64,000 nucleotides of DNA from Branchiostoma floridae (taxonomy: Eukaryota > Chordata > Leptocardii > Amphioxiformes > Branchiostomatidae), in the NCBI RefSeq assembly GCF_000003815.2, contig NC_049983.1:21061341-21125340 (forward strand), in the 5' to 3' direction. Shown here piece by piece: positions 40,601 to 56,136 of this stretch. The stretch's first letter is position 1. The number at the start of each line of letters is the position of its first letter. The position numbers were made by a program, and so were the translations under genes. The notes under the pieces are model-generated. The model worked only from the letters and a program-made list of their open reading frames with translations, had not been told where the DNA came from and did no database searches.

Positions 40601-42145
40601 CATACACGCTAAATTTCCTGTTGGTTTGAAACCTACACCATGGTAAAAACAACAAAGGAATTTACACGAAAATTACGTGTTTTCGAGCCGTAATATTGGC
40701 GGGAAGGCGATAAAATAGCAGTTAAAAAAACTATAAGAGTAAAAAATGAAGCTGAAATATTGTAAATAACTGGAAAATAAGAAGATACAGGGTTAAATAC
40801 TCCAGCGGCAAGGTTTCTTGCAAGGGGTGTTTACGCCCGGAGTCATGGAACGGACTACTTTCTCTCGCGGAAGGAAAATAAAACTGCCTCGAACTCTCGA
40901 CGTGGCTGGGCGGCTGGTGTTCTACCCTTGTCCTTAGTGACCCTTTAATAGTGAGTTTCTGGGCACAGACGGTGAAACCTGGCGACCAAACTGATTGGTC
41001 CGGTCCGACCGTCGGGCCATCGCCATCAAGTCATATCGATTGCCCCAGCGGCCAAGCTATTCTAACTACTGTAATCCTAATCATAACTATAACTACTAGT
41101 TTAAAAAAAACTTAACTCAAAGTCAGACTCAAAGTATTGTCTCCACACGCACACGCACTAACCCATTGAGCAAAACTCTACCGCCGTGACGGGCGGGTTT
41201 GGAGTCACTGCTCAGAACCTGGCGTCCGATTGTGGAAGAATTGAAGGGAACATTTATGTTTGTTTTGCAACCCAATGCATAAAAAGTTACTTTCCCCTAG
41301 CCTGGTATCCAGCCGTAATTATAGCTCCCGAGTCTCTTCTCTCCTGGATACCAGGCTAACTTCCCCCCCCCCCCCCCCTCCCCAAAAAACTTCCCAGACC
41401 ACATGATCATCTCTGAAGGAATGTCATGCCTCTGGTTGCGACCCACAGCGGACAACAAGTACAGTTTAATACTGTAATACTTCCGAAATATACCAACGGT
41501 GCCAAAGATCCGGGAGCTGGGCGGCTTCCAATCCTGTCCTCACAAAATCCATCCAATGAACAGAAGTTAGATTCCGCATCAATGCAGGACATCGTACGCT
41601 TTTTCAATACGACGACGTCATCGAACAGTACCGTCCCGCCACATTGTCCCGTTGTGAAGCTGTAATTCCTGAGATGGAGGTCGTGACTGGAACCAATAAC
41701 CGTGGGTAATGATCCACATGTGTCTGTAAGGATCGGGTGTGCTTTCCGCGGCTACAGACCAGGATACCGATCTGTCTCGTCCAGTGCCAGACCTTGGGAA
41801 CGGGCCAGAGGTGACGCGCTGACGACCGCAGCCTTGAAGGGGGAGGATTTCCACCTTACGGGGGCTACTTCATAGGAGCATCACCAAATTCTACTTCGGG
41901 ATTTTCGGCACAGAGGTGTCGAAACAACTTTCCAGTTGCATTTGGCGATTTTGCGCGCACGCTGAGCCGTCCTCTAGAGGCGTATCGAGCGATTTGTGTG
42001 TAAACAGCTCTTCCTGCGCTTCCTAGTTAAACCCCAGAAGTAACGGGGAACTTAATTGTTTCCAAAAAGAGCCACCTATCTTGCCGTCTTATTCCCCAGG
42101 TTACCAGTTCATCGGGCACCGGGCAGCCAGACCAGGCGAGCTAGT
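37690..42145. other. No protein gene; possible end of a non-coding transcript
   Basis: AT-rich DNA. At 38762 a TACAG acceptor-like site is followed by about 1 kb without ORFs, ending at an AATAAA (39734-39739). Together with the donor at 35512 this could be a spliced plus-strand non-coding RNA. About 140 bp at 40500-40640 resemble 35640-35780 (shared GATTGGGGGC and CTTTTCGCACT). A 61-bp fold-back lies at 41298-41358. The segment before 42145 should hold the promoter of the SOD-like gene. Confidence 0.35.
41298..41358. repeat. Short fold-back element
   Basis: The 15-bp arms TAGCCTGGTATCCAG and CTGGATACCAGGCTA are exact reverse complements. The interior, CAGCCGTAATTATAGCTC, resembles the arm of the hairpin at 57.8 kb. 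Confidence 0.7.
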
Positions 42146-45100
42146 ATGGCGCCCGTCGGATTTTTAGTCTTCCTGTCCACTTGCTGGACTTTGCTGCACA
42201 GAGGAGAGGGTCAACAGTACTACAGTCAGTACACTAACTACGGCGGCGGCGGCGGTAAGGTCATCGAAATTACTGAGTCGTACGAGATATGTGAGTGCCA
42301 TGTTTCTTTTCAGATTTAAACTCTTCCTGCACGCCGACACCACCAAACCCCTCAGTGCACTTGTGTTGTTCGTTAGGGCCGTACTTTTAGCGGGGAAAGC
42401 TTGTGACGTGGCAGCTCAAGATGGGAGAAAATGTCTTTAGCTTTACTTTGCGGGGTAACTATCATCCTTCCAGGGGGGATTCGCCCTCTCTGTTGATCAG
42501 TGTGGTCGGGTCTATTAAGCAAGTCGTTTTAGTAGGTTACAACACCGGGGTGCTTAGACCTAGATTATTTACTGGAAGTAGATCAGATGAAGACTTTGGG
42601 CGGATGGCCAAACGGCGGCGCTCAAGTTCGCACAGTTGGCGCGCTTTCTTCTTCCTTGACCTTTCTGTACTAAAGGTAGTTGGAAAGGTTGTATCGGCCG
42701 CCGTTTGGCCGTACTTTTGTGTTTTGATTATAGTATTGTCAGCTTTCATCTCCCTGTTGTTGTGATGGGTAGGAAATATGGCGGAGAGCCGCTTGAAGTG
42801 ATTTACGCCTTCCTGCATTTTTCTTGGGAAACCAGCCGTAAGATTTGTTTTTGCAGCCAGCGAAAATATACCATTTTATGAAGATGTAAGAAAGGAGTAA
42901 AACTGTGGCTGTGTGTTAAGTGTTTGTAAACCTCTAGGCTAGATTTGCGCACTGTATAGTGCGCTCATGACTCTACGTAAATTTAACTTTCGTTCGTCCG
43001 ATCTATTCCCCTGGTGAAAGCGAACCATTAATTAAAAATCTCCGCAACCCAACCTCTGCTTGGAGAATACGTCCTATCGCTTTTGTGAAGTTTCTGATCG
43101 TGGATGCGCTTCAATGATTTGACAGCGACTTATCAGTATCAGTGTCAGTATCATCATTTATCAAAGAACTATAGGCGCCATGTTGTTTTGTTCTGCCTCG
43201 CCGCTTTGAGTTTAGTGACAGCGGGCTGGTAGTGGTTAGAGCAGGGGCGCTCAGACTGGATTAAAACTTTGAAGTCCATAAAATTTGATCACGGTCCCAC
43301 CAGGCGAAGACTGCAATTGTGGCCCTATAGTTTGGATAGTTAAGTTGGCTAATAGGCTTGTAAAGAATGTCGTAGTTTTGTGGCAGGGTATCCAAAATGT
43401 ATCTAAACCAAAAAATAACAAGCTACCAAAGCGCACCAAGCGTGGATTTTCCGTGTTGTGAAAACTTACCAGGAGGAATATTCGTTTTTAAAGTTACAAA
43501 GGTATATTGAAAGATAGATCATTGACTCATTTATGTAAATGTTGCCATTTAAGCGCCAAAGAGTGAGACTGTATCGCCCATCGAATGCTTTCTACTCCAT
43601 CTTGCCTCCCCTTCCCCCCACCTTGGCGTGTTTGAAAAGACTTTGTAGATTAGTCCACAACTGTTATGACGTGTCAATCTTCCTCTGTAGTACCCCGGGT
43701 TTGAGGCGGTCCTGTAGATAAGACGACATGTGCTGCTGATTATCCTCCCTATATGCACTGGAGGCAGAGGCCGAGGTTTTGTCAGCATACTGCCGGGAGA
43801 TGCAAGTACCCTGCCGTTACTCTTGCCTTCCAGTCAGTTAATGACAGAAGTGGGGTTCTAGGTCGAACAGACAAAGTCGACAAGACACCCGAAGACGAGG
43901 GAATAGGTCATTCCTGCATCTCTTCTTCAGACAGAGTCTGCCCCGACCGGAGTACGCTTTATGAAAATCACCTGTGCATTCCAGTGTTTACGTCCCCGAT
44001 GTGTGCGCACGGGACCGACTGCCTATTAACTCCAATCCGGCACTGCAAAGACCAAACCTGTTTTTGTTTTAAAACCTGTTGTGACGAAAGTTCTTGGATT
44101 CAAGATCTTGATCTTGGGCCGTGACAGGCTTGGAAGACGACAACCTGTTACCTGGGGGGCGGGCGTGCCTAAACGGACCTGAGTAGATTTCGGCGTTCCT
44201 CCGAGACTGTTACTATTTTAATAGCCAATGCAAAAATCTAAATATGGCTGTATATTGAGGTTTTCCCCTGTTTGTCATTAACTGCGATGGGTGATTCTTA
44301 AACGTGTTTATTGACAATCTGTTCCTGCTGCCACACGGCTCTGCTGTTCCTCGCAAATCCAATCTGAAAGGACCTACTAGCGCGGCACTTCCTCTGTAAG
44401 TATGCCAAAAGAGGATATTGTATCACAGAATAGGAAACAACACAAGGTTACTGGCAGTGTTACTGGTAGCCTGCAGTAGGTCATTGCCAGCTAAACTAGC
44501 AATACGTAGGATGGTAATGGCATCCATGATACTTTATTACATGCGTTTCGATATGATTACGCAATGTTTGCCTACTTAAAAACTCACATTCAGCGAGAAA
44601 TTCTTTTTGTCAATTCACGACCTGTGCAAATACCGTTAGTGACAGAAAAGCTACCTTTCTCTATTACTGCGCTGGTTGAAGCAGGGAGTCATACTGGCCA
44701 AGCGATTCTCATCGCCTGACAGTAAATGTTCACCTCTTGACGTTGACCTTGAAATAGACCCGGCTGGGATGATGCCCCCTCCCACATTCCACCTCCGGTA
44801 TGCATAGTCCTGCCACATTTGAAGTGAAAGGTTAGCCATCCTTTAAAGATAACCACAGAAGTGAAGACTCCTTTCTACTTTCTAGCAGATAAAAGTCGGG
44901 AATTTGTCAGTTCGGAATTTGAAATGCTTCAATCGTCCAAGACAGCACTTAACAAAACGGACCACCTGCTGCTACTTGTAGAGTTGTAGTCTATGGCATC
45001 AGTTGTGGTCTATGGTATGTCAACTTTTAAGTTGGAATTAAAATCCCCTCCGACTTGAGATTCCTTTTGAAGAAAAAGTGTTGTGCCCCAGGGTGCCATC

Positions 45101-48100
45101 CGTTTCTGTCTCCGAAACACGCTTACATTATGAGACAATCTTCCGTTGAAGTTCTAGGGAACAGAAGCTCAGATGTTTGTAATTAAATGTTTCTTAAAAT
45201 AGGACTGTCATTGCCATTCATCTGGCAGGTTTCAAAGGTTTTGCCCTTAATTCAGTTGCTCAAGATAAGCGATTAAATCCCTACTTCAGCATTTCAGGCA
45301 CATGCGTTATATTTGTGCATTTGATAAAGTGCCTCTTGCGATTAAAGATTTGTATGTCGCCCAAAGCTAAGGGTAGAATTCCTCACAACATGTCGTATGT
45401 CTTCGTAATCTACGTTTACTCCAGACCTGGTTTCAGTCAATGGTTAGTTAAGTGTCAAGGCTGGATGAGAAGTTTCTTGAGGCTGACTAAAACCTAGGCC
45501 TGATAGACCTTTCTCTCTTAGCAACGAACTATTTCTTCTTTTGGATACTTTGAGTGTACTATTGTGATGCTTGGAGGAAACACTGACGGACGAACTGACA
45601 ACGAAGATTAGGCAACTTGCGACCTTGATCAAATGTGTCAAATGTCAATAATGATCCTGTAGCAGCAGCAGACATGTCCTGCATCGGGCAACTTTCTAGA
45701 TATTCGCTATCAGTGACGATGCACATTGGTCAGGCGGTGCTTATATGTAGATATGGTCATTTGTACAGGTTTGACTGTACCAGCTATACTTTGGCAAGGG
45801 CTTCGCGGAGGGTTCGCCATTTTGTCACAAAATTGCCAGTTCATGCTGGTCGTGAATTTGATCCGCTGATCTGCCTATCCGGTGATCCCTGAACAAACTC
45901 TTCATCTGCAACTTACTCGGCCCTCAGTAGCAGAGGGGGTCCTCTCATTTAATACCGTACTTATTTATTCGACCCACATTGACTTGCAAGACAATCTTAT
46001 TGTCACCCTGATATTGTAATTTGAAATAGGTGGTGAGGTGGTGTTCGTTTCCCGTAAACAAAAATGTGTTTGCATCCTCCAGCAATGGCAAGTTTGGAAA
46101 TTGACCCGAAGAAACAGAAATTGTTGATCTCATACTCCCACCAACACCAAACAATATGTTAGACTGTTTTGTCCTCAGCAAACGGCTAATTTTGATGGCC
46201 TGACCAGCCGCCAATTGCGTGAGCTTGCTTTCCGAAGTTGTAATTTGCCGCCTGCCTGAAGATGTTGGAGATGTTTGTAGAATCCAAATCATTCTCGGAT
46301 TTTGCTTGCTACTCGAACTTCGTTCTGGTATAATAAAAGACACTCACATCCGAATGCTAAAGCTGTAGCTAAAGACTCTCTCTCGAAGAACTCTAGGATA
46401 TCTAGAGATCTGCTGCCTAGCTCTCGGGCCTGTGGTCTATAGCAGGGGGATAACTGGCCTGGATAAGATGGGACTTAATACCACCCTTTCCAGACTCCAT
46501 GTGGTGTACTGAAGCATGTTCACCCCTTCTCACAACACATGTTGGACCAGATATGTATAACGTTAATGCTTGAATTGCGTGTTAATGTTGGCTTGCTATT
46601 CGTATTCACTACAGGAAGTAATGTAACCACGTGTTCGTTCTACCCAGTATCACCCAACTCTCAGTGCATGGTTCTGATCCTATTTTGATTTGTTTGCTTC
46701 TGTGTTTCTTGTATTGTGCTTGACATATCTGACTGTTAAGAGCATCCCAGAGCGCTATCTTGCTATACTGAGAGGAGGAAGAAATGAACCTTCTCAGCTC
46801 GTAACGACGCCACCTTGTAGATTTGCTGACAGTGCCACGCTGGACACCCTGCACGTCCCAGACAGAACACGCACGAACCCGACCCTGCCTGCTGCATGGA
46901 TGTGTGATAATGACAGTTGATAACCCACTAACACTCTTTGTTCCAGTTGATTCCTCGGCCCCATCACCAAGTTATCCGTCCGCCAGTTATCCGTCCGCCA
47001 GTTATCCATCCGCCAGTTATCCATCATCCAGTTATCCCACCTCCTATGGCTATGACAAAACGTCCTACAACTACCAACAGCAACCATCACCATCTGTTGC
47101 AGCTTGCGGAGACCAACACAACCTGTGCAGTGAGTGGGCCAAGAACAACCAGTGCGTGGAGAATTCGGGCTACATGCTGGAAATGTGCCCACAGAGTTGC
47201 CGAGCGCCCTGCCCTCAGCGCCCGGCCCCATCCTACCCGTCGTACCCCTATCCCTACCCCTCCTCATACCCATATCCCTACCCCTCCTCATACCCATCTT
47301 ATCCTTCTGGGTATCCTTCGTACCCATCCTCTGGTAAGTCGTAGTATAAAGTATTATACCAGAGTATTATACCGCATATGTAGTTTGATGGTTTGTACAT
47401 ATGTTTGCATGGGTCTCGGTTGGTGCACAGCACATTAGAAGTCGCTGCCTAAGTCTTGAATCAGTTAGGAACTGTAGTGTTTATGAACGACCAAATTCGC
47501 ACGAATTGTTTTCATAATAATTCTCAATAGCGTAAATTGGCCTTTTCTTATTATATGGCATGTTTGCGATTACACTTGGGCAATGCGTATTGTCGTTTGT
47601 TAAGCTAAGAAACGGAACTATTTTCATAATTATCATCGTAGTCTTTCGTTCCAAATAGAAGTACAGGTGCACAAAGTTATGTTCATATGATACAAATTGT
47701 TTGCGACCACCCAAGGGCAGATCGAGGTGTCGAGAGCAATAAGGACTTCATTCTACAAGAACCCATTTGCTTCCCCTCAAACTTGAAACCAAATTTAACT
47801 CGATCTTTTATAAAATTTGAATTACAAACGGCATGCGTGTCCAACCCCTCGGGTGCTTTTACCAGAGCGTTGCTATAACACAAAGGATGCCCTCCGTATC
47901 TGCTAGCTGGGTACTACGTCTCGGCAGCGGAGTTTTACCAGCTGCAGGTGAACGTGAGCGCCATCTGGGAGATCCTGAACATCACCAACCCCGACCTCGT
48001 CCTCAACATCACCGCCGAGATGAAGAAGAGGCTGGAGAGTAGCACACAGACGACAACAACAACGACGACGTCGACGACAACAACAACAAGTGGATCTGGA

Positions 48101-51100
48101 GTAAGTAGTTAATGATCTATGTTTGTTGTGTTATAGTGCACCATGGGACACTTTTCTTATTAAACACTACCACTGAGACGTTTATATACTAACATTACAT
48201 GTAGTAGTTCTTCGGTCTACTACTCACATGCTGATCAAGAGATCCGTACAGTGTCGGTGATGAGTGTCTGTTTGCCTAGTCAAAATTTTCCACAAGTTTG
48301 ATTTACCAGATTCAGCCTGCTGTGCATACCATAGGCCCGTTTCTCTTAGCCACTCTTTTAAGCCGGAATTTCCCGTTATCACTGCCCAGGGAAACTAACA
48401 CCGTACAAAGTCCCTGGCGCGCGCTATTGGTATAGATAGGCGTAGCACCATAGAAATAGTGGGCTCACTATAATATGGTTACCAGGCTTTGTGTCTGTGG
48501 TAAAACTGTAGCAACTGTGTAGATCGGGCTATCGCAAAACTGTTCAGATGTGGCCGTGACTTCTTGGAATATAAAACGTCAGATAGAAATGTCTCTAATA
48601 TTGCGATATTTGTTCATTTCACAAAAAATTGCAATAAACAGTAAATGTAAACTTGCACGACGCTTTGTGTCATGAAGGTGGGGGGGGGGGTGCGTTGAAT
48701 ATTCCTCATTGACATATACGTGTTTTATCAGTAGGGGGCAGAAACAACGTTGTACACAACACATTGCAGAAGTCAGAACCACCTGCACACATATGCTGCC
48801 CTGTTGGTGACGATAACCTCTCCTTTTGGCAGAATCTCAATTGTTCATTAACTGCATCTCTGCAGATCTGTCGGAGAGCTCCGTTTGGCAATGCTTCTTG
48901 CAATGTGTAGTAAAACTATTCCAACTATTCCTTATCTGTGAGAACTGTGCAGCGTGTTAGAAACCATAACATTTCTTTTCTGTCTCTAGAGTTGTTTGAT
49001 GATTGGTCACAGCGCACTGAAACTACGACAAATTTAGGCACACTTTGGCTGGAAGGACAAGGGCAAAAGTCATTCGGTTCATGCCCAGGTGATTAGTTGG
49101 TCACTAGGCTAGTATGGGCTCACACTGTCACCTGGCGTAGTGCCATGCACCTTTTGTGTCTGACCCTCGAGACCTCTGTCTGGCTTCGCCATTGGTGAAA
49201 TCATGCATCCGCGAGTTTGTTAGCACAAGAAAGGTGGTATCAAATGGTGAGGTAAGGTTGGCCCCATACGACCTACAACATTTCGTTGGATTCAAGTCTT
49301 ACGTGCTCTTTAGTAGATTGCCTGCTGGTGATTGCAGTTGTTGCAAACATCCGCCAACTGTCATTTTTCTCATATTCAATCTCCCATGGACTGAAATAGA
49401 CAATGCCAACCCCCAACCCTTCTTGCATCGAAGGGAAAAGAATCAAATCATACAAAAACGTAACGTGAAAAGTAGAAGAAAAAACTTCGTGATGACACCG
49501 TGACAAACATGTCTGTTCTAAGAAAAACCACAGCATCAGAACGTGATATAACGCAAGAGGTCACATCACCACGGCGCTGTATCTACAAACATGCTGACTT
49601 CATTACAAGTCAACGATGTCGTGTCTGTTTTGAGTTCTGGAGGATTTTAAACCAGAGGTGAAGGCTTAGGGGTATACCGTAGGTACCCCCGAGTAGTAAT
49701 TTTGGATATCCTCCAGACAGTTTTACACATTTTTGTTCGCGCTGAGTTCTAACAGTGTTTCCTCGTCAGTTTGGCACTGGTGCGGCAGGGTCTGCAGCCT
49801 GCTGCTCGGGAGTGAAGTGTGTTCCGCGGGACAAGCTGTCCTGTTCTCTCAACGAACAAGTCCTGCCGTACGGGGAATGTTGCTACCAATGTCTAGGTGA
49901 GACTTTCTCTGTATTCTCTGGAGTACATTTCAATTCAATCCAAGTTATGTCAATTTTATCAACATTGCAGAGAGAGAATGCAGACGCACAAAAAGGGTAG
50001 CTTAACTGGCGTCGATGGAATTGATGGACTATTCACGATAACACATATGCACCTATATTCATACACTGAGAGCTGACCTTTATAGTGTATTTACACTGCT
50101 GATGTGTTATACTTACTCCCTACGTATAGACCAATCAGAAGCTATGTAACAGACTTGCCCATGAAAATCTAACAGGTGTCAGTTTCCGGGCGCAAAGGAT
50201 GCTGGGTAGCTGGGCATCACGGCCTCATCAAGTGGACGATATCTCAGCTTCTTCACCTATCCTTTCCGCATAAAGGACAGGGAACAGGACAAATATCTTT
50301 GAAAACCATACTAACGTGTCTAGTTCTTGTGTCTGTGTCGTCTGCAGGAGAGACCGGGTACAGGTATGGACACTGTGACATGCTGCCCAACACGGCCATA
50401 CCGTTGGACCAGCAGACGCCTATCGCTGGTTATGTTGACGTTAGGCAAAAGGTACAGAATGCATTTCCCTTATCATGGTACCACTCTGGGTGTAGATGGA
50501 GAGTTTATAGGTCCCCCATAGTGTAGAATATAATCAAGATACATGCGCAGCACCTACTAGTACTTTCTGAACAGACTGCACAGGCAGTTTAAGGCCTGTG
50601 ACACCTGACTACCGGTGCAATGGCCTAGTGGTTAGAGTGTTCGCCTTGCATTCGGTAGGTCGTGAGTTCGATCCCGGCCGAGTCATACCAAAGACTTTAA
50701 AAATGGTACATGCTGCTTTCTCTGCTTAGCACTCAGCACTAATGAGGAAGAGTATGGAAGTTAAACACACATCACTACCAGCGGACCAGCCCCCTGCTGT
50801 AGTGGCTTGCACATGTGTGGCCCAAGGGCTACAGAAATGGAGATGGGCGCCACCCGCATCTGTTACTGATGTACGGGCAACTTTAACTTTAACTTAACAC
50901 CTGTAGATTCTCAGTCGAGCAGTTATATGGCCATAACTTTTGATGTAACCATCTGTTTTCAACAATTTTTGGCCAGTTAACGTAATTCACCCATATTCAA
51001 AATATGATGACAAGAAAATTGTGGATCCTCAATATTTTGGGGTTAAAAAACCATTTTTTGGTAAAAAATAGGGATGCTATTAAAATGGGTCTGTGCCCAC

Positions 51101-54100
51101 TATGAGATGATTGTCTAACTGAGTCATATTTTCTGGAGTAATAGATTATATCTCTGTGATATCTAATATGCCTGGGGATCTTGCCGCTTTACATCGGTAA
51201 GGCTCCGTTTTGGGGCAAAAACAGAATTTTTTGACAATTTTTTGGTATTTTTCGTACAAATATCAATACAGCCACGGAAATCAAAGATATTGCAAGAAGG
51301 CCCGCTTGATTTCTGAAGGTCTAAGGCTTAATGAACCTAAATCTGCACAAAACTCGTAATAAAACTGGTGCCCTGATGTGGGCAGGGGCCGACGAAACAC
51401 TACTTACCCTACATGAACTGCGCCCAAGTAAGACATGTTTGACTGTACGTAACATTAACCGATGGTAAAATATGAATGTTTTATGTCTGTATCTGCTAAA
51501 TTGTTGTTGTATCAATGCGAAATTTCGCAAGCAGTTAGCCTTATAAGACATCAGTCAACTGCCATACAATCATTTTGGGCTAGAAATACCGATTTATAGC
51601 ATTATTTTGCTGTTTCCTTGAAGTATGAGCGCCTCGCTGTTTTCCCGCCACTCCACACCCCGGGAGGTCGGAACACATGTTCGGACTGTACCACTTGCAG
51701 ATCTCGCGGGGGTGCCCTTTTGTTAACCGCTTCTAGTTATGCCGATATTTGATAAATACTAGATCAATATCTTTAACATTCAACATTAATAAGTCTCAAG
51801 ATAAGTAGTCAGTGTAGCCCGTGCATCGTAAGTTCCTGTTTTCGCAATGTAACATTAGGTACTGACATTGGACCGTTCTAAAAACGCTCCGGCCCGGCGG
51901 GGTTACCTGAGGTCACGCAGTGGTTCAAATTTCATGTTCGACCAAAATTGTCACAGGCCTTAAAGTGCCCGTGTGAGTCGTGCAGTTCCAATCAGCGAAG
52001 AGGAATGGCTTTATAACCACAGTGAAAGTTTGTTGACCAGTTGAATACAGAACGAGAAAAGATTTTGGCAAAGCGAAAGTTAGACGATCCTGTCTTTATG
52101 TAAAGTGTATGTGTCATTGTAGCAATTCCACTACTAGTACATGACAATTATCACCTTCCTCGGAGTAAACCAACTTTGATGCTTGTTGGTTCTGAGATGC
52201 TAGGAGGAACTAGAATGCCAGAAGCATTGATCTTATCTACAGTTGACCATAAACAAGTAAATGACGTTTAACATTGCTTACCTGTCCAACATATGCGCAA
52301 AATCAGCTCAGTAAAGCAGGTAAAACACTGCTTTTGCTCTAGCCTAACCCTTCGTGTGCTATACTTTAAATTATGGTCTTTAAAATAGTCATTTTAGAGG
52401 TCTTAATTTTCCAGGGTTGAAGTTCTAGTTATAGGTGTCGATATAAAACTCTTTCCTTATCGCCCAATGCCTTCCTGATCCCATATATGGCTCCCCATAT
52501 CGCCCCATAACAATGCAAACCTGGTCTCGCACCTCCGTTCACAGCTTAGCGGCGGTAAGATTGAAGTACGCATGCAGGTGCTGGGCTTCGATTCCAAGAC
52601 ACGGTCATATGGCATCACGGTTCTGCAGTACGGTGACCTGAGCCGAGGGTGCTTGTCTGCCGGCGACCATTACAATCCCTTTAACAACACTCATGGCGGT
52701 GCCAAGGACCAGATTAGGTACGTCTGCCCCTGGTCTAACGTCTTGTACACTCACCCTTGTTCCAGCTAACGGGAGGTAAGGTGGAAGTGTTCTTACGGCT
52801 AAAGGGCTTTGGCAGGAATCTGCGCTCTTATGGCGTGACGGTCCACGAGCTAGGCGACCAGAGTAAGGGCTGCACGTCCACCCGGGACCACTTTAACCCA
52901 TTCAACCTCGGTCATGGTGGACCCAAGGACGAGGATAGGTACGTTAAAAACCATGAGCCCTCCCCTTCTGCCGCTTGCACGCCTCCAGCCTAACTCCAAA
53001 AGAGCTGGTAACGTTTACTTCTATGGCAAAACAACAACAACAACAACTGACTAACGTTTGCCCTGATGACGATCAGAAACAGACCCATGGACAAGGACTG
53101 CCCCCGGCAGCACAAAAGCAACCTACCCATATTACGTCTTTACTGACTGATCTTCTTGAAATTATCCCATCTTCGCTATTTTTGGATTTTCGTAGCTTTT
53201 TGTGCTGACAAAGGAAACTACAGACCACATCAAAGGAATATATATTTGCAAGTGTTGTGCAAGCCTTGCGGTGTCCCCACCATGTGTCTGTTACGTGTTT
53301 TCATCTTCTTGGTCTGGATGGAATTGGAATGATACTATTTATGAGAAGCATTGAGGACTTATGCGCGCTAAAAACCTTACATCAACCCAACCCAACCCAA
53401 CTCAATCCAACCGTCCTGCCTTACTTTAAACCTATTGCTGGTAATGTCGGCCATATGTCATAACCAAGAGTTTGTCTCAGGTAATAACTGTTGCTTACCG
53501 GGTAACAACAACGCATTGACCCTTGCCCACTGACTTCCGTCGCCCAACCCCCTACCGTCCTTCAGACCATCGAGTTAGCTCACAGGCCACACTTCCTTCG
53601 GTTCTCCTTTCAGCAATTCACTCTCCTCCCCTGCCCTATCCCAATGACCTCCTTCCCTATTCCCTAGTCCTTCCATTTCATGATGAGAGCTGAGGGTATA
53701 AAAACATGCGATTTTCGTTATAATAATCATAATCCCTCTACTCCGCCTAGGTGGCAGCCCCAGGAATGGATCTGCGCTCCCTCAATAACCCTGATCCTAC
53801 TAGTACTAATCCCGATCTTCCACAGAATCTCCCCCACCAGCGCGCATATTCTTCAAACTGGTTGTTTCTTCCAAAAATCATTCTATGCTTGTTTTACAAA
53901 AAAAAAGACTCGAAAATCCACGGAGGTAGAACCTAATAGTCCATACTTTTTCGTACCATACTTTTCACTCAAGCCGTAAATTAACCATGGGTGAGCTGGG
54001 ATATTTTCTGTAGGCATCTCGGTGACTGGGGTAACGTGGAGGCGGACTCCACTGGGGAAGTCAACGCCATCATCAAGGACGAGGTGGCATCCCTGGTCGG

Positions 54101-54755
54101 ACCCTACTCCATCATTGGCCGCACTATTGTGGTAAGTCTCTTTGTGAAACGTAGACCAGGGGCTAGCCTCCATAGCAGGCTCTTCGGGCCTTTTTCTTTT
54201 TTTACAAAGGAACGTTATTTTCCAACATGCGCTATTTCAGTATTCCTGACATCAAATGATAATTTGAATACTCTACGCATCAGCTGTCATCGTCCTATCA
54301 TAAAGATTTGCTGATGACTCATCCTTGATCTTGAAATAGAAGAATTGTAGAAAGAACGAAATGAATGCTTACTTCATATGACATATGCTAATGAGTTCTA
54401 TTAGAATATTATAGAATTTCTTGTTTTAACCTGTACGTCGCCAGATACTGCATCAAATTTATGTGGTGCTAGAAGAATGCGAATATTACTTTAAAACTAT
54501 TTCTTAGCCCAGAATCAATATTCAAATACTGTACCTCAATAGATCCATGCCAACGAGGACGACTTAGGAAGAGGAGAGACCGCTGAGAGCAAGAAGACCG
54601 GTAACGTGGGGAAGCGACTGGCGTGCTGCGTGCTGGGCCACTCGGACGGCACGCACTGGAAGGACCTGGAGAAGCTCAGGAGGAGGAAACGGGGGGCGGT
54701 GCGCGTGGAAGGCCCCTCCGCCCAAAGAGTTGTCCGGTCCCCGCGCAAGAACTGA
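42146..54755 (+). CDS. Secreted ShKT / VWC-like / Cu-Zn SOD-like protein with mutually exclusive SOD exons (479 aa)
   Basis: Exons: 42146-42290, 46947-47333, 47928-48100, 49770-49896, 50348-50451, then either 52545-52717 or 52766-52938, then 54014-54131 and 54543-54755. Signal peptide [25 protein letters not shown] repeats (residues 57-80); a six-Cys ShKT domain at 102-137 (Cys 102, 109, 118, 129, 133, 137); Tyr/Pro-rich repeats; a Thr-rich linker; a Cys cluster ending GECCYQC like a VWC domain; then an SOD-like domain (about 290-435). The SOD part keeps Zn-site and disulfide landmarks ([33 protein letters not shown]). The GFHVH copper motif is replaced by YGITVL or YGVTVH. The tail has [10 protein letters not shown], basic like the matrix-binding tail of EC-SOD and possibly furin-cleavable. 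Dismutase activity is doubtful; metal binding or a matrix role is inference. Confidence 0.82.
42291..46946. other. Intron 1 of the SOD-like gene
   Basis: Apart from the Cys-rich candidate exon at 43931, no coding or recognised repeat sequence is supported. A short tRNA A-box-like word lies at about 43226-43250. Confidence 0.45.
43931..44124 (+). CDS. Candidate Cys-rich alternative exon of the SOD-like gene
   Basis: A strong acceptor (CTGCATCTCTTCTTCAG) precedes a frame that joins exon 1 (42146-42290, phase 1) correctly. It encodes [40 protein letters not shown] and then a stop at 44122-44124. The Cys spacing loosely resembles EB-type modules. Used as a terminal exon it would give a short secreted Cys-rich protein. 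The only in-frame donor onward to 46947 (GAAA|GTTCTT) is weak. No poly(A) signal is seen close by. It may be a chance ORF. Confidence 0.3.
50589..51963. mobile_element. TTAA-flanked non-autonomous element in the SOD-like gene
   Basis: TTTAAGGCCTGTGACA (50588-50603) and its exact reverse complement TGTCACAGGCCTTAAA (51949-51964) bound 1.37 kb. Each end has TTAA next to an 11-bp or longer inverted repeat GGCCTGTGACA, as in TTAA-targeting superfamilies (piggyBac, Kolobok). It contains a tRNA-derived SINE near its left end and no transposase. It sits in the intron just upstream of the alternative SOD exons. Confidence 0.6.
50613..50896 (+). mobile_element. tRNA-derived SINE
   Basis: Pol III promoter boxes are intact: A box TGGCCTAGTGGT (50621-50632) and B box AGTTCGATCCC (50665-50675), with tRNA-like spacing. 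The body has no coding potential and ends in ACTTTAACTTTAACTT. It is inserted in the left part of the TTAA-flanked element. Confidence 0.85.
52545..52717 (+). other. Alternative SOD exon A
   Basis: 173 nt, phase 0 in and phase 2 out. It encodes 57 codons plus two bases, including [24 protein letters not shown] and THGGAKD. Compared with SOD1, positions of copper ligands H46 and H48 are Thr and Leu. H63, H71 and the disulfide Cys57 are kept. Confidence 0.85.
52766..52938 (+). other. Alternative SOD exon B
   Basis: 173 nt with the same phases as exon A, 48 bp downstream of it. It encodes [24 protein letters not shown] and GHGGPKD. H46 is Thr but H48 is His; H63, H71 and Cys57 are kept. Joining A to B gives AGC then TAA, an immediate stop. 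Confidence 0.85.
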
Positions 54756-56136
54756 TGATGTGAAGGGGACGGCACTGTACTGTACAGACAAGTGTCGCTG
54801 ATGGTGTCACTGTAGTGGGGGGAACAGGGGGGAGGGGACAAGAGAGGAAAAGACATTACTAGAATACATTTTTACATTGTTCCTAGTTTTGGATATAAAG
54901 TTAGTACCACTCATTAATGGTTTCAGTGTCAACAGTAAAGATGTTAGCTTCGACAACTTTGTCTTTATCTGACTGGCCGTTTTGAATTACAGAATGTCAG
55001 ACAAGTAAAAATATACATGTACATGTAATGGGATATTTTGCCGGAGGTGTTTGCTTTATATTTTTTATACAATTTTTGAACCATATTCAATCACCGTCGC
55101 GAGGTATTTGAATAGTAAGGTTATAGCTGTTAACGTCAGTGTTGTCAATGTGATATACACATGTAGCATACAGAGCGTCATGAAGGTGTTGATCGGAGAG
55201 AATTAACTGTCTGTAAGAGTAAACGGCACACACTGTGGAATTTGATGGTGAAAGTAGCGAAGTAACTGGGCCTCTGTAGTCAGACAGCGCCCTGGTACTG
55301 TGGCTGTGTAGAGATGGGTGTAGGAGAAGCGTTAATCGGCAGATTTTATCCGCTGGTAAGGCAACGTTTTGTGGTCTCTCCAGAAGTAGGTGTACGAAAG
55401 AGATATACGAAACTAGCCTGAACTAATATCTGCTCGAAAAATAGATAGGAGGCAGTAACTATGTATTTAGTTTGTCCAGAATTGGTCTATTGAAGGAGTG
55501 CTTGTAGTAGCGAGAGTGTTGAGTTACGTCGTTGTAGATTATCCTGCAATGTTCTGGTCATGATGTCGTCGTTTTAATATGCTGTACCAAACTGGGATCG
55601 ATACAAGAGATGAACCCAAATAACCTTACCCGAGTCATGACCGGAACAAAAGGTCCCAGCTTTAGATAAGTCCTGTCTGTGTTATACTAACTTCTATCAG
55701 TAGTGGCGCAGTATTTGCTAGAAGAAGCACACTACGGTTTCCTAATCTAAGTGTCACTTATTTCCACAGGTATTTTGTGTCTGTCAAATGTAATATTGAA
55801 GACTTCGATTGAAATGCACCTTTGTAAAAGTAAGTCACATGTAACGTCGCTTTGTGACTTAAGATAATTTGTTTAAATCCATGACAGGTGTCTAAGACTT
55901 TAACCCTTGCGAATATCTTAGGTAATGGGTAGAGGCGTTTGTGATTGACAGGTCGGGTCGAGTTCAGATGATGACCTCATCACCATGGCAACCAACGGTG
56001 TCGGGTCAAAGATCATGCCGCAGAAATGCCTGTTGACTGTCAGGGGCAGTAACAAACAAAATACTGTCACTCGTTACTAAACGTTTTTAAAAACGTTGAG
56101 TGACATGTGTCAGTATTTTTAGGCACTATCATCTGA

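Follow-up and report, generated by a model that had tools for sequence, protein, structure and literature searches.

The window analysed here, a stretch of 64,000 nucleotides from Branchiostoma floridae, corresponds to positions 21061341-21125340 of contig C5 in the 513-Mb genome and contains, on its forward strand, a gene with a SOD-like domain in which two homologous exons lie side by side. The parts of this gene, in window coordinates, are as follows.

42146..42254, + strand: likely first coding exon, with a hydrophobic signal-like N-terminus (open reading frame and sequence; 3′ end placed by eye at GTAAGG)
46947..47333, + strand: exon with a Pfam ShK domain (PF01549, E = 8.5e-05) between Ser/Pro/Tyr-rich stretches; counterpart in a paralogue on contig C3; splice ends placed by eye
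49770..49896, + strand: Cys-rich, VWC-like exon without a Pfam hit; counterpart in the C3 paralogue; splice ends placed by eye
50348..50451, + strand: upstream common exon, start of the SOD-like domain, ending in phase 0 (sequence and frames)
52545..52717, + strand: alternative exon A, with Thr46, Leu48, Cys57, His63 and His71 (SOD1 numbering)
52718..52765, + strand: spacer of 48 nt separating exon A from exon B, carrying CTAAC (A at 52738) and a weaker CTCAC (A at 52753)
52766..52938, + strand: alternative exon B, with Thr46, His48, Cys57, His63 and His71 (SOD1 numbering)
54014..54131, + strand: downstream common exon, entered in phase 2, with His80 and Asp83 (sequence and frames)
54152..54163, + strand: exact match of 12 nt, antisense to the spacer; a possible RNA-pairing element and a lead only
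54543..54755, + strand: last coding exon, with His120 (IHANEDD), RLACCVLG as the end of the SOD domain, a basic tail and the stop

The SOD-like protein is probably secreted, as suggested by the signal-like N-terminus and the upstream ShK domain. The succession of ShK, Cys-rich (VWC-like, no Pfam hit) and single SOD domain is an unusual combination, present both in the C5 gene and in its C3 paralogue. The intron before exon A also holds a tRNA-like stretch (window positions ~50610-50720) with a GTTCGATCCC box, which by eye resembles a tRNA-derived SINE.

Homology and reading frame of the tandem exons

A sequence-only reading of this locus had proposed that the two exons are mutually exclusive versions of one SOD segment, and the exon coordinates, lengths, phases and gap on which it relied were all reproduced: exons A and B are 173 nt long each, enter in phase 0, leave in phase 2 and lie 48 nt apart. 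Their splice sites are alike, with CAG/C acceptors and AG/GTACGT donors in both. The translations are identical at 31 of 57 residues and differ at the remaining 26, and searches of the 513-Mb genome recovered exon A with exon B as query (E = 2.9e-15) and exon B with exon A as query (E = 2.2e-15), values that speak against chance and uphold the proposed homology. Identity between the exons at codon positions 1, 2 and 3 (38, 41 and 26 of 57, respectively) follows the pattern of protein-level constraint. In PMC3228551, mutually exclusive exons are adjacent, similar in length, in the same reading frame, homologous and flanked by conserved splice sites, and the A/B pair shows adjacency and likeness of length, frame, sequence and splice sites.

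Inclusion of exon A alone or of exon B alone allows the SOD-like domain to be read through. Joining both exons in silico reproduced the immediate stop (AGC TAA) that the earlier reading had claimed, retention of the spacer places a stop 17 codons past the last full codon of exon A, and skipping of both exons leads to a stop after three codons. Early stops are hence found in all three non-exclusive products tested, the physical block to joint inclusion being itself a prediction. Exon lengths not divisible by three are characteristic of such systems and are reported for 377 human mutually exclusive clusters (60%; PMC5740500).

Predicted exclusivity of the two exons

The spacer had been judged probably too short to be spliced as an intron, an assessment to which both its putative branch points and the intron lengths surveyed lend support. 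A scan for yTnAy motifs located the best candidate for exon B in the spacer CTAAC, the A of which lies 21 nt past donor A and precedes exon B by 28 nt; that of the weaker CTCAC lies 36 nt past donor A and precedes exon B by 13 nt. The steric threshold given in PMC7969005 is ~50 nt from donor to branch point, and in that study the exclusion of the two OGDH exons is ascribed to branch points at 25-41 nt from the donor of the first exon. Both spacer motifs, at 21 and 36 nt, fall below this published threshold, which is a vertebrate one.

The same scan, applied to the 60 nt upstream of exon A, returned no usable yTnAy motif, its sole match being unsuitable at a distance of just 4 nt; a near-match, ATAAC, was spotted by eye only, with its A at 52510, 35 nt before the exon. 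The earlier claim of good splice sites in both exons therefore stands for acceptors and donors, which are intact in both, but holds less well for exon A in view of the region upstream of it. Since it has no usable upstream motif, exon A may be a weaker or weakly used exon, or the user of a non-consensus site.

Against this vertebrate threshold stands the splicing, in some invertebrates, of introns close to 50 nt in length. Intron lengths in the B. floridae genome were surveyed from hand-picked adjacent exon matches of three families (p450, myosin and TCP1), the three match tables contributing 29 of 118, 88 of 142 and 37 of 60 rows. The survey set aside rows with internal stops and some stop-free myosin rows, its p450 rows were picked by eye for having neighbours, and it is by construction blind to introns short enough for read-through. 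Fifty-five intron-like gaps (39 + 16) passed the survey rule and, once profile overlap was corrected for, none measured 80 nt or less. The smallest, of 87 nt (on contig C6), is contained in a single open frame of 551 codons and could represent an insertion rather than an intron; the next measures 102 nt. Raw gaps of 54 and 57 nt (myosin) and 75 nt (p450) were dropped, with overlap-corrected lengths of ~117, 150 and 246 nt, because in each pair one match has stops and overlaps its neighbour (by 21, 31 and 57 profile positions), indicating that it runs into the intron.

These distances also bear on a reading in which the spacer is spliced and transcripts joining A to B, with their early TAA, constitute a regulated unproductive output that tunes protein level in the manner of a poison exon. 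Joint inclusion does yield a stop with junctions downstream, the usual signal for nonsense-mediated decay, but the donor-to-branch-point distance would be 21 nt, an intron as short as the spacer is absent among the 55 surveyed gaps, and such a device has no need of two coding-constrained copies, so that we consider it extremely improbable.

A second proposal, compatible with mutually exclusive use of the exons, is that the spacer pairs with the antisense 12-mer located past the downstream common exon, in the intron that follows it, hiding the branch point of exon B and favouring exon A. The exact 12-nt match overlaps the branch-point motif of exon B and is reached by 1 of 1000 spacer shuffles when the search is limited to the flanking introns, but by 21 of 1000 over the gene region 42001-54800. 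In duplex energy the spacer is unremarkable, with 13 of 40 shuffles doing as well as its best value; the antisense match was found post hoc at a site beyond a constitutive exon, and the 60 nt upstream of exon A contain no antisense match of at least 9 nt. We regard this pairing as a tentative and rather unlikely refinement.

Mutually exclusive splicing through steric block and frame is what we predict at this locus, because of the branch-point spacing, the outcome of the short-gap survey and the early stops of the non-exclusive products. Both exclusive use and the steric block are predictions from genomic sequence.

Origin of the exon pair and constraint on its copies

In the paralogue on contig C3 (L010, 1827-5967), ShK-like, Cys-rich and SOD exons succeed one another as in the C5 gene, the SOD exons with matching phases, and the place of exons A and B is taken by one exon of 173 nt. 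When the last codon, split with the following exon, is included, exons A and B are identical at 32 of 58 residues, versus 26 (A) and 23 (B) of 58 in comparison with the C3 exon. The single exon in C3 and the mutual closeness of A and B indicate, barring conversion, that the exon was duplicated within the C5 gene. Among the matches listed in genome searches with the exons, there were both C5 exons, the single C3 exon and otherwise only partial matches in SOD-domain genes. Two SOD-domain genes on C9, one at C5:17.95M and one on C1 split the segment into two exons.

A tblastn search of the introns flanking the C3 exon detected no second copy; the nearest candidate, a 12-residue match at L010 5149-5184, was rejected as being at chance level (E 6.6-6.9). 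Comparison of the intron flanks upstream of exons A and B yielded only a shared 8-nt CCTGGTCT, a score reached by 107 of 1000 shuffles, and comparison of the downstream flanks nothing convincing (424 of 1000 shuffles). The lack of significant similarity between intron flanks and the saturation of synonymous change suggest that the duplication is old, with no sign of a recent event. As judged from these genomic comparisons, the pair is the outcome of a tandem exon duplication that took place within the C5 gene long ago.

Two further SOD-domain regions were noted in passing. A 725-codon open frame at C4:20942442-20943761 (L001, L002, L005) contains three Sod_Cu matches and fits the multi-domain Rsod type. 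An exon at C1:10443601-10443735 (L007, L012) reads HGLAVHELGD, with Ala at the His46 position and His at 48, resembling the pattern of exon B; we take it to be possibly part of a copper chaperone gene.

Selection was assessed with a three-branch codon model on three sequences (A, B and C3) of 58 codons, with estimated branch omegas of 0.038 (A), 0.086 (B) and 0.109 (C3). An omega of 1 was rejected on the A branch (2dlnL 7.23, p = 0.007; bootstrap 1/120) and, less firmly and at the borderline, on the B branch (2dlnL 4.47, p = 0.035; bootstrap 5/160). Synonymous sites are saturated and branch lengths lie at or near the optimiser bound (those of A and C3 at the bound), so that the tests draw on few informative sites. 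They show signs of purifying constraint on both exon copies, as support and not as proof.

The same results weigh on the possibility that one copy, either A or the less constrained B, is a fading relic rarely or never spliced in. Exon A has lost His48 and is preceded by no usable yTnAy motif, and the selection test on the B branch is borderline (5/160). Both frames have nonetheless stayed open, with no indel and with splice dinucleotides intact in the face of saturated synonymous change, both exons retain Cys57, His63 and His71, and it is on A that constraint is the stronger of the two (1/120). On balance, we consider decay of either copy unlikely.

Consequences for the metal site

Either isoform gives a near full-length match to Pfam Sod_Cu, above the cut-off in both cases (A, 8.5e-36, 123.7 bits; B, 4.8e-36, 124.6 bits), and both match single-domain SOD structures (best E 1.6e-38 for isoform A and 3.6e-42 for isoform B). 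For position names we rely on SOD1, in which we take the copper ligands to be H46, H48, H63 and H120, the zinc ligands H63, H71, H80 and D83, and the disulfide Cys57-Cys146. Four of the seven Cu/Zn ligand positions (46, 48, 63 and 71) fall within the swapped exon. Alignments to SOD1 entries agree with the earlier reading in placing Thr/Leu (A) and Thr/His (B) opposite H46/H48. As Thr46 is common to both, the exons differ at one ligand only, position 48 (Leu/His). The zinc ligands H63 and H71 (swapped exon) and H80 and D83 (shared exon), as well as Cys57-Cys146, align in both isoforms, which also receive His120 from a shared exon. A catalytic Cu/Zn SOD has all four copper ligands; isoform B keeps three (48, 63, 120) and isoform A two (63, 120).

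The suggestion that the isoforms differ exactly at the metal site consequently needs to be narrowed: ligand 48 does differ, but it is the only ligand among the 26 of 57 residues that do, and the zinc set is the same. A switch between active and inactive enzyme is unlikely because both versions are without His46 yet keep the zinc ligands. With three of the four copper ligands in B and two in A, the likely differences between the isoforms concern how much copper binding is left and what surface the exchanged strands and zinc loop present. We read the domain as a SOD fold that would come in two versions, both with the zinc site preserved and the copper site impaired, its metal occupancy and function being predicted from these alignments.

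The C3 protein keeps H46 and H48 and is missing H63 and H80. Since the paralogue keeps both residues, the most parsimonious sequence of events puts the loss of His46 ahead of the exon duplication and that of His48 later, in A. Both genes have incomplete copper/zinc sites in which different ligands have been lost, and because of these losses the pair looks released from copper catalysis.

A more elaborate scenario would make the locus a splicing switch for copper retention by a secreted SOD-fold protein, in which isoform B would bind copper through His48, His63 and His120 and isoform A would not, the choice resting on competition at a branch point, itself open to masking when the 12-mer at 54152-54163 pairs with it. 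We deem this scenario quite improbable.

Discussion

The reading that we favour, and hold to be likely, is that exons A and B are old in-gene tandem duplicates of a ShK/Cys-rich/SOD-like gene that are now used as mutually exclusive exons. The mutually exclusive arrangement put forward by the sequence-only reading is well supported by homology, frame, spacing, branch point, constraint and the single-exon paralogue. Two layers would enforce the choice. Sterically, the branch point of exon B would lie ~21 nt from donor A in the 48-nt spacer, too close for assembly of an A-to-B splice; at the level of frame, transcripts containing both exons, neither, or the unspliced spacer would be frameshifted into an early stop. 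The products would be two versions of one SOD-fold domain, probably differing in residual copper binding and in surface rather than in dismutation being on or off.

Mutually exclusive tandem exons are a known kind of system, of which a case in the SOD family is a well-supported prediction. OGDH exons 4a and 4b (PMC7969005) are likewise ancient tandem duplicates with branch points close to the donor of the first exon, and one OGDH isoform carries a metal-sensing motif. OGDH differs in its metal, calcium, and in an intron of 118-131 nt in birds and mammals; the present pair belongs to a SOD fold, is separated by 48 nt and has its branch-point motif at the usual spacing from the acceptor. The human exon clusters described in PMC5740500 and PMC9741552 resemble the present pair in being homologous, adjacent exons with lengths that are not a multiple of three, and a donor-to-branch-point distance below 50 is given there for 57 human cases (9%). 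According to PMC9741552, the regions swapped by tandem exon duplicates in humans tend to spare ligand residues (14% of residues against 10.7% of those predicted to be functional), although the two overlapped in 26 events. Unlike them, the SOD-like exon pair covers four of seven metal-ligand positions, and this is the most unusual trait of the exchanged segment.

Within the SOD family, Drosophila Sod3 is likewise an extracellular Cu/Zn SOD gene with alternative splice forms, but the longer of these gains a hydrophobic tail (PMC4274663), whereas the exchange predicted for the C5 gene affects the central part of its SOD domain. Rsod and the additional animal CuZnSODs are also atypical SOD-domain proteins, mostly extracellular or membrane-bound; PMC9524095 lists 10 further CuZnSOD sequences with extra domains and includes B. 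floridae among the 19 species surveyed. Rsod proteins have 2-6 SOD domains in that source, and the C5 gene differs from them in having one, behind ShK and Cys-rich parts, each isoform presenting one Sod_Cu stretch. Among the titles and abstract openings of the literature matches listed, drawn from a collection with most subscription journals outside its coverage, we found no report of this gene or of mutually exclusive exons in the SOD family.

The single-exon C3 paralogue provides, within one genome, a stand-in for the state that preceded the duplication, and isoforms A and B can be expressed and their metal content directly compared. Together, the exon pair and its paralogue would form a clean system in which to study how a SOD fold freed from copper catalysis diversifies.
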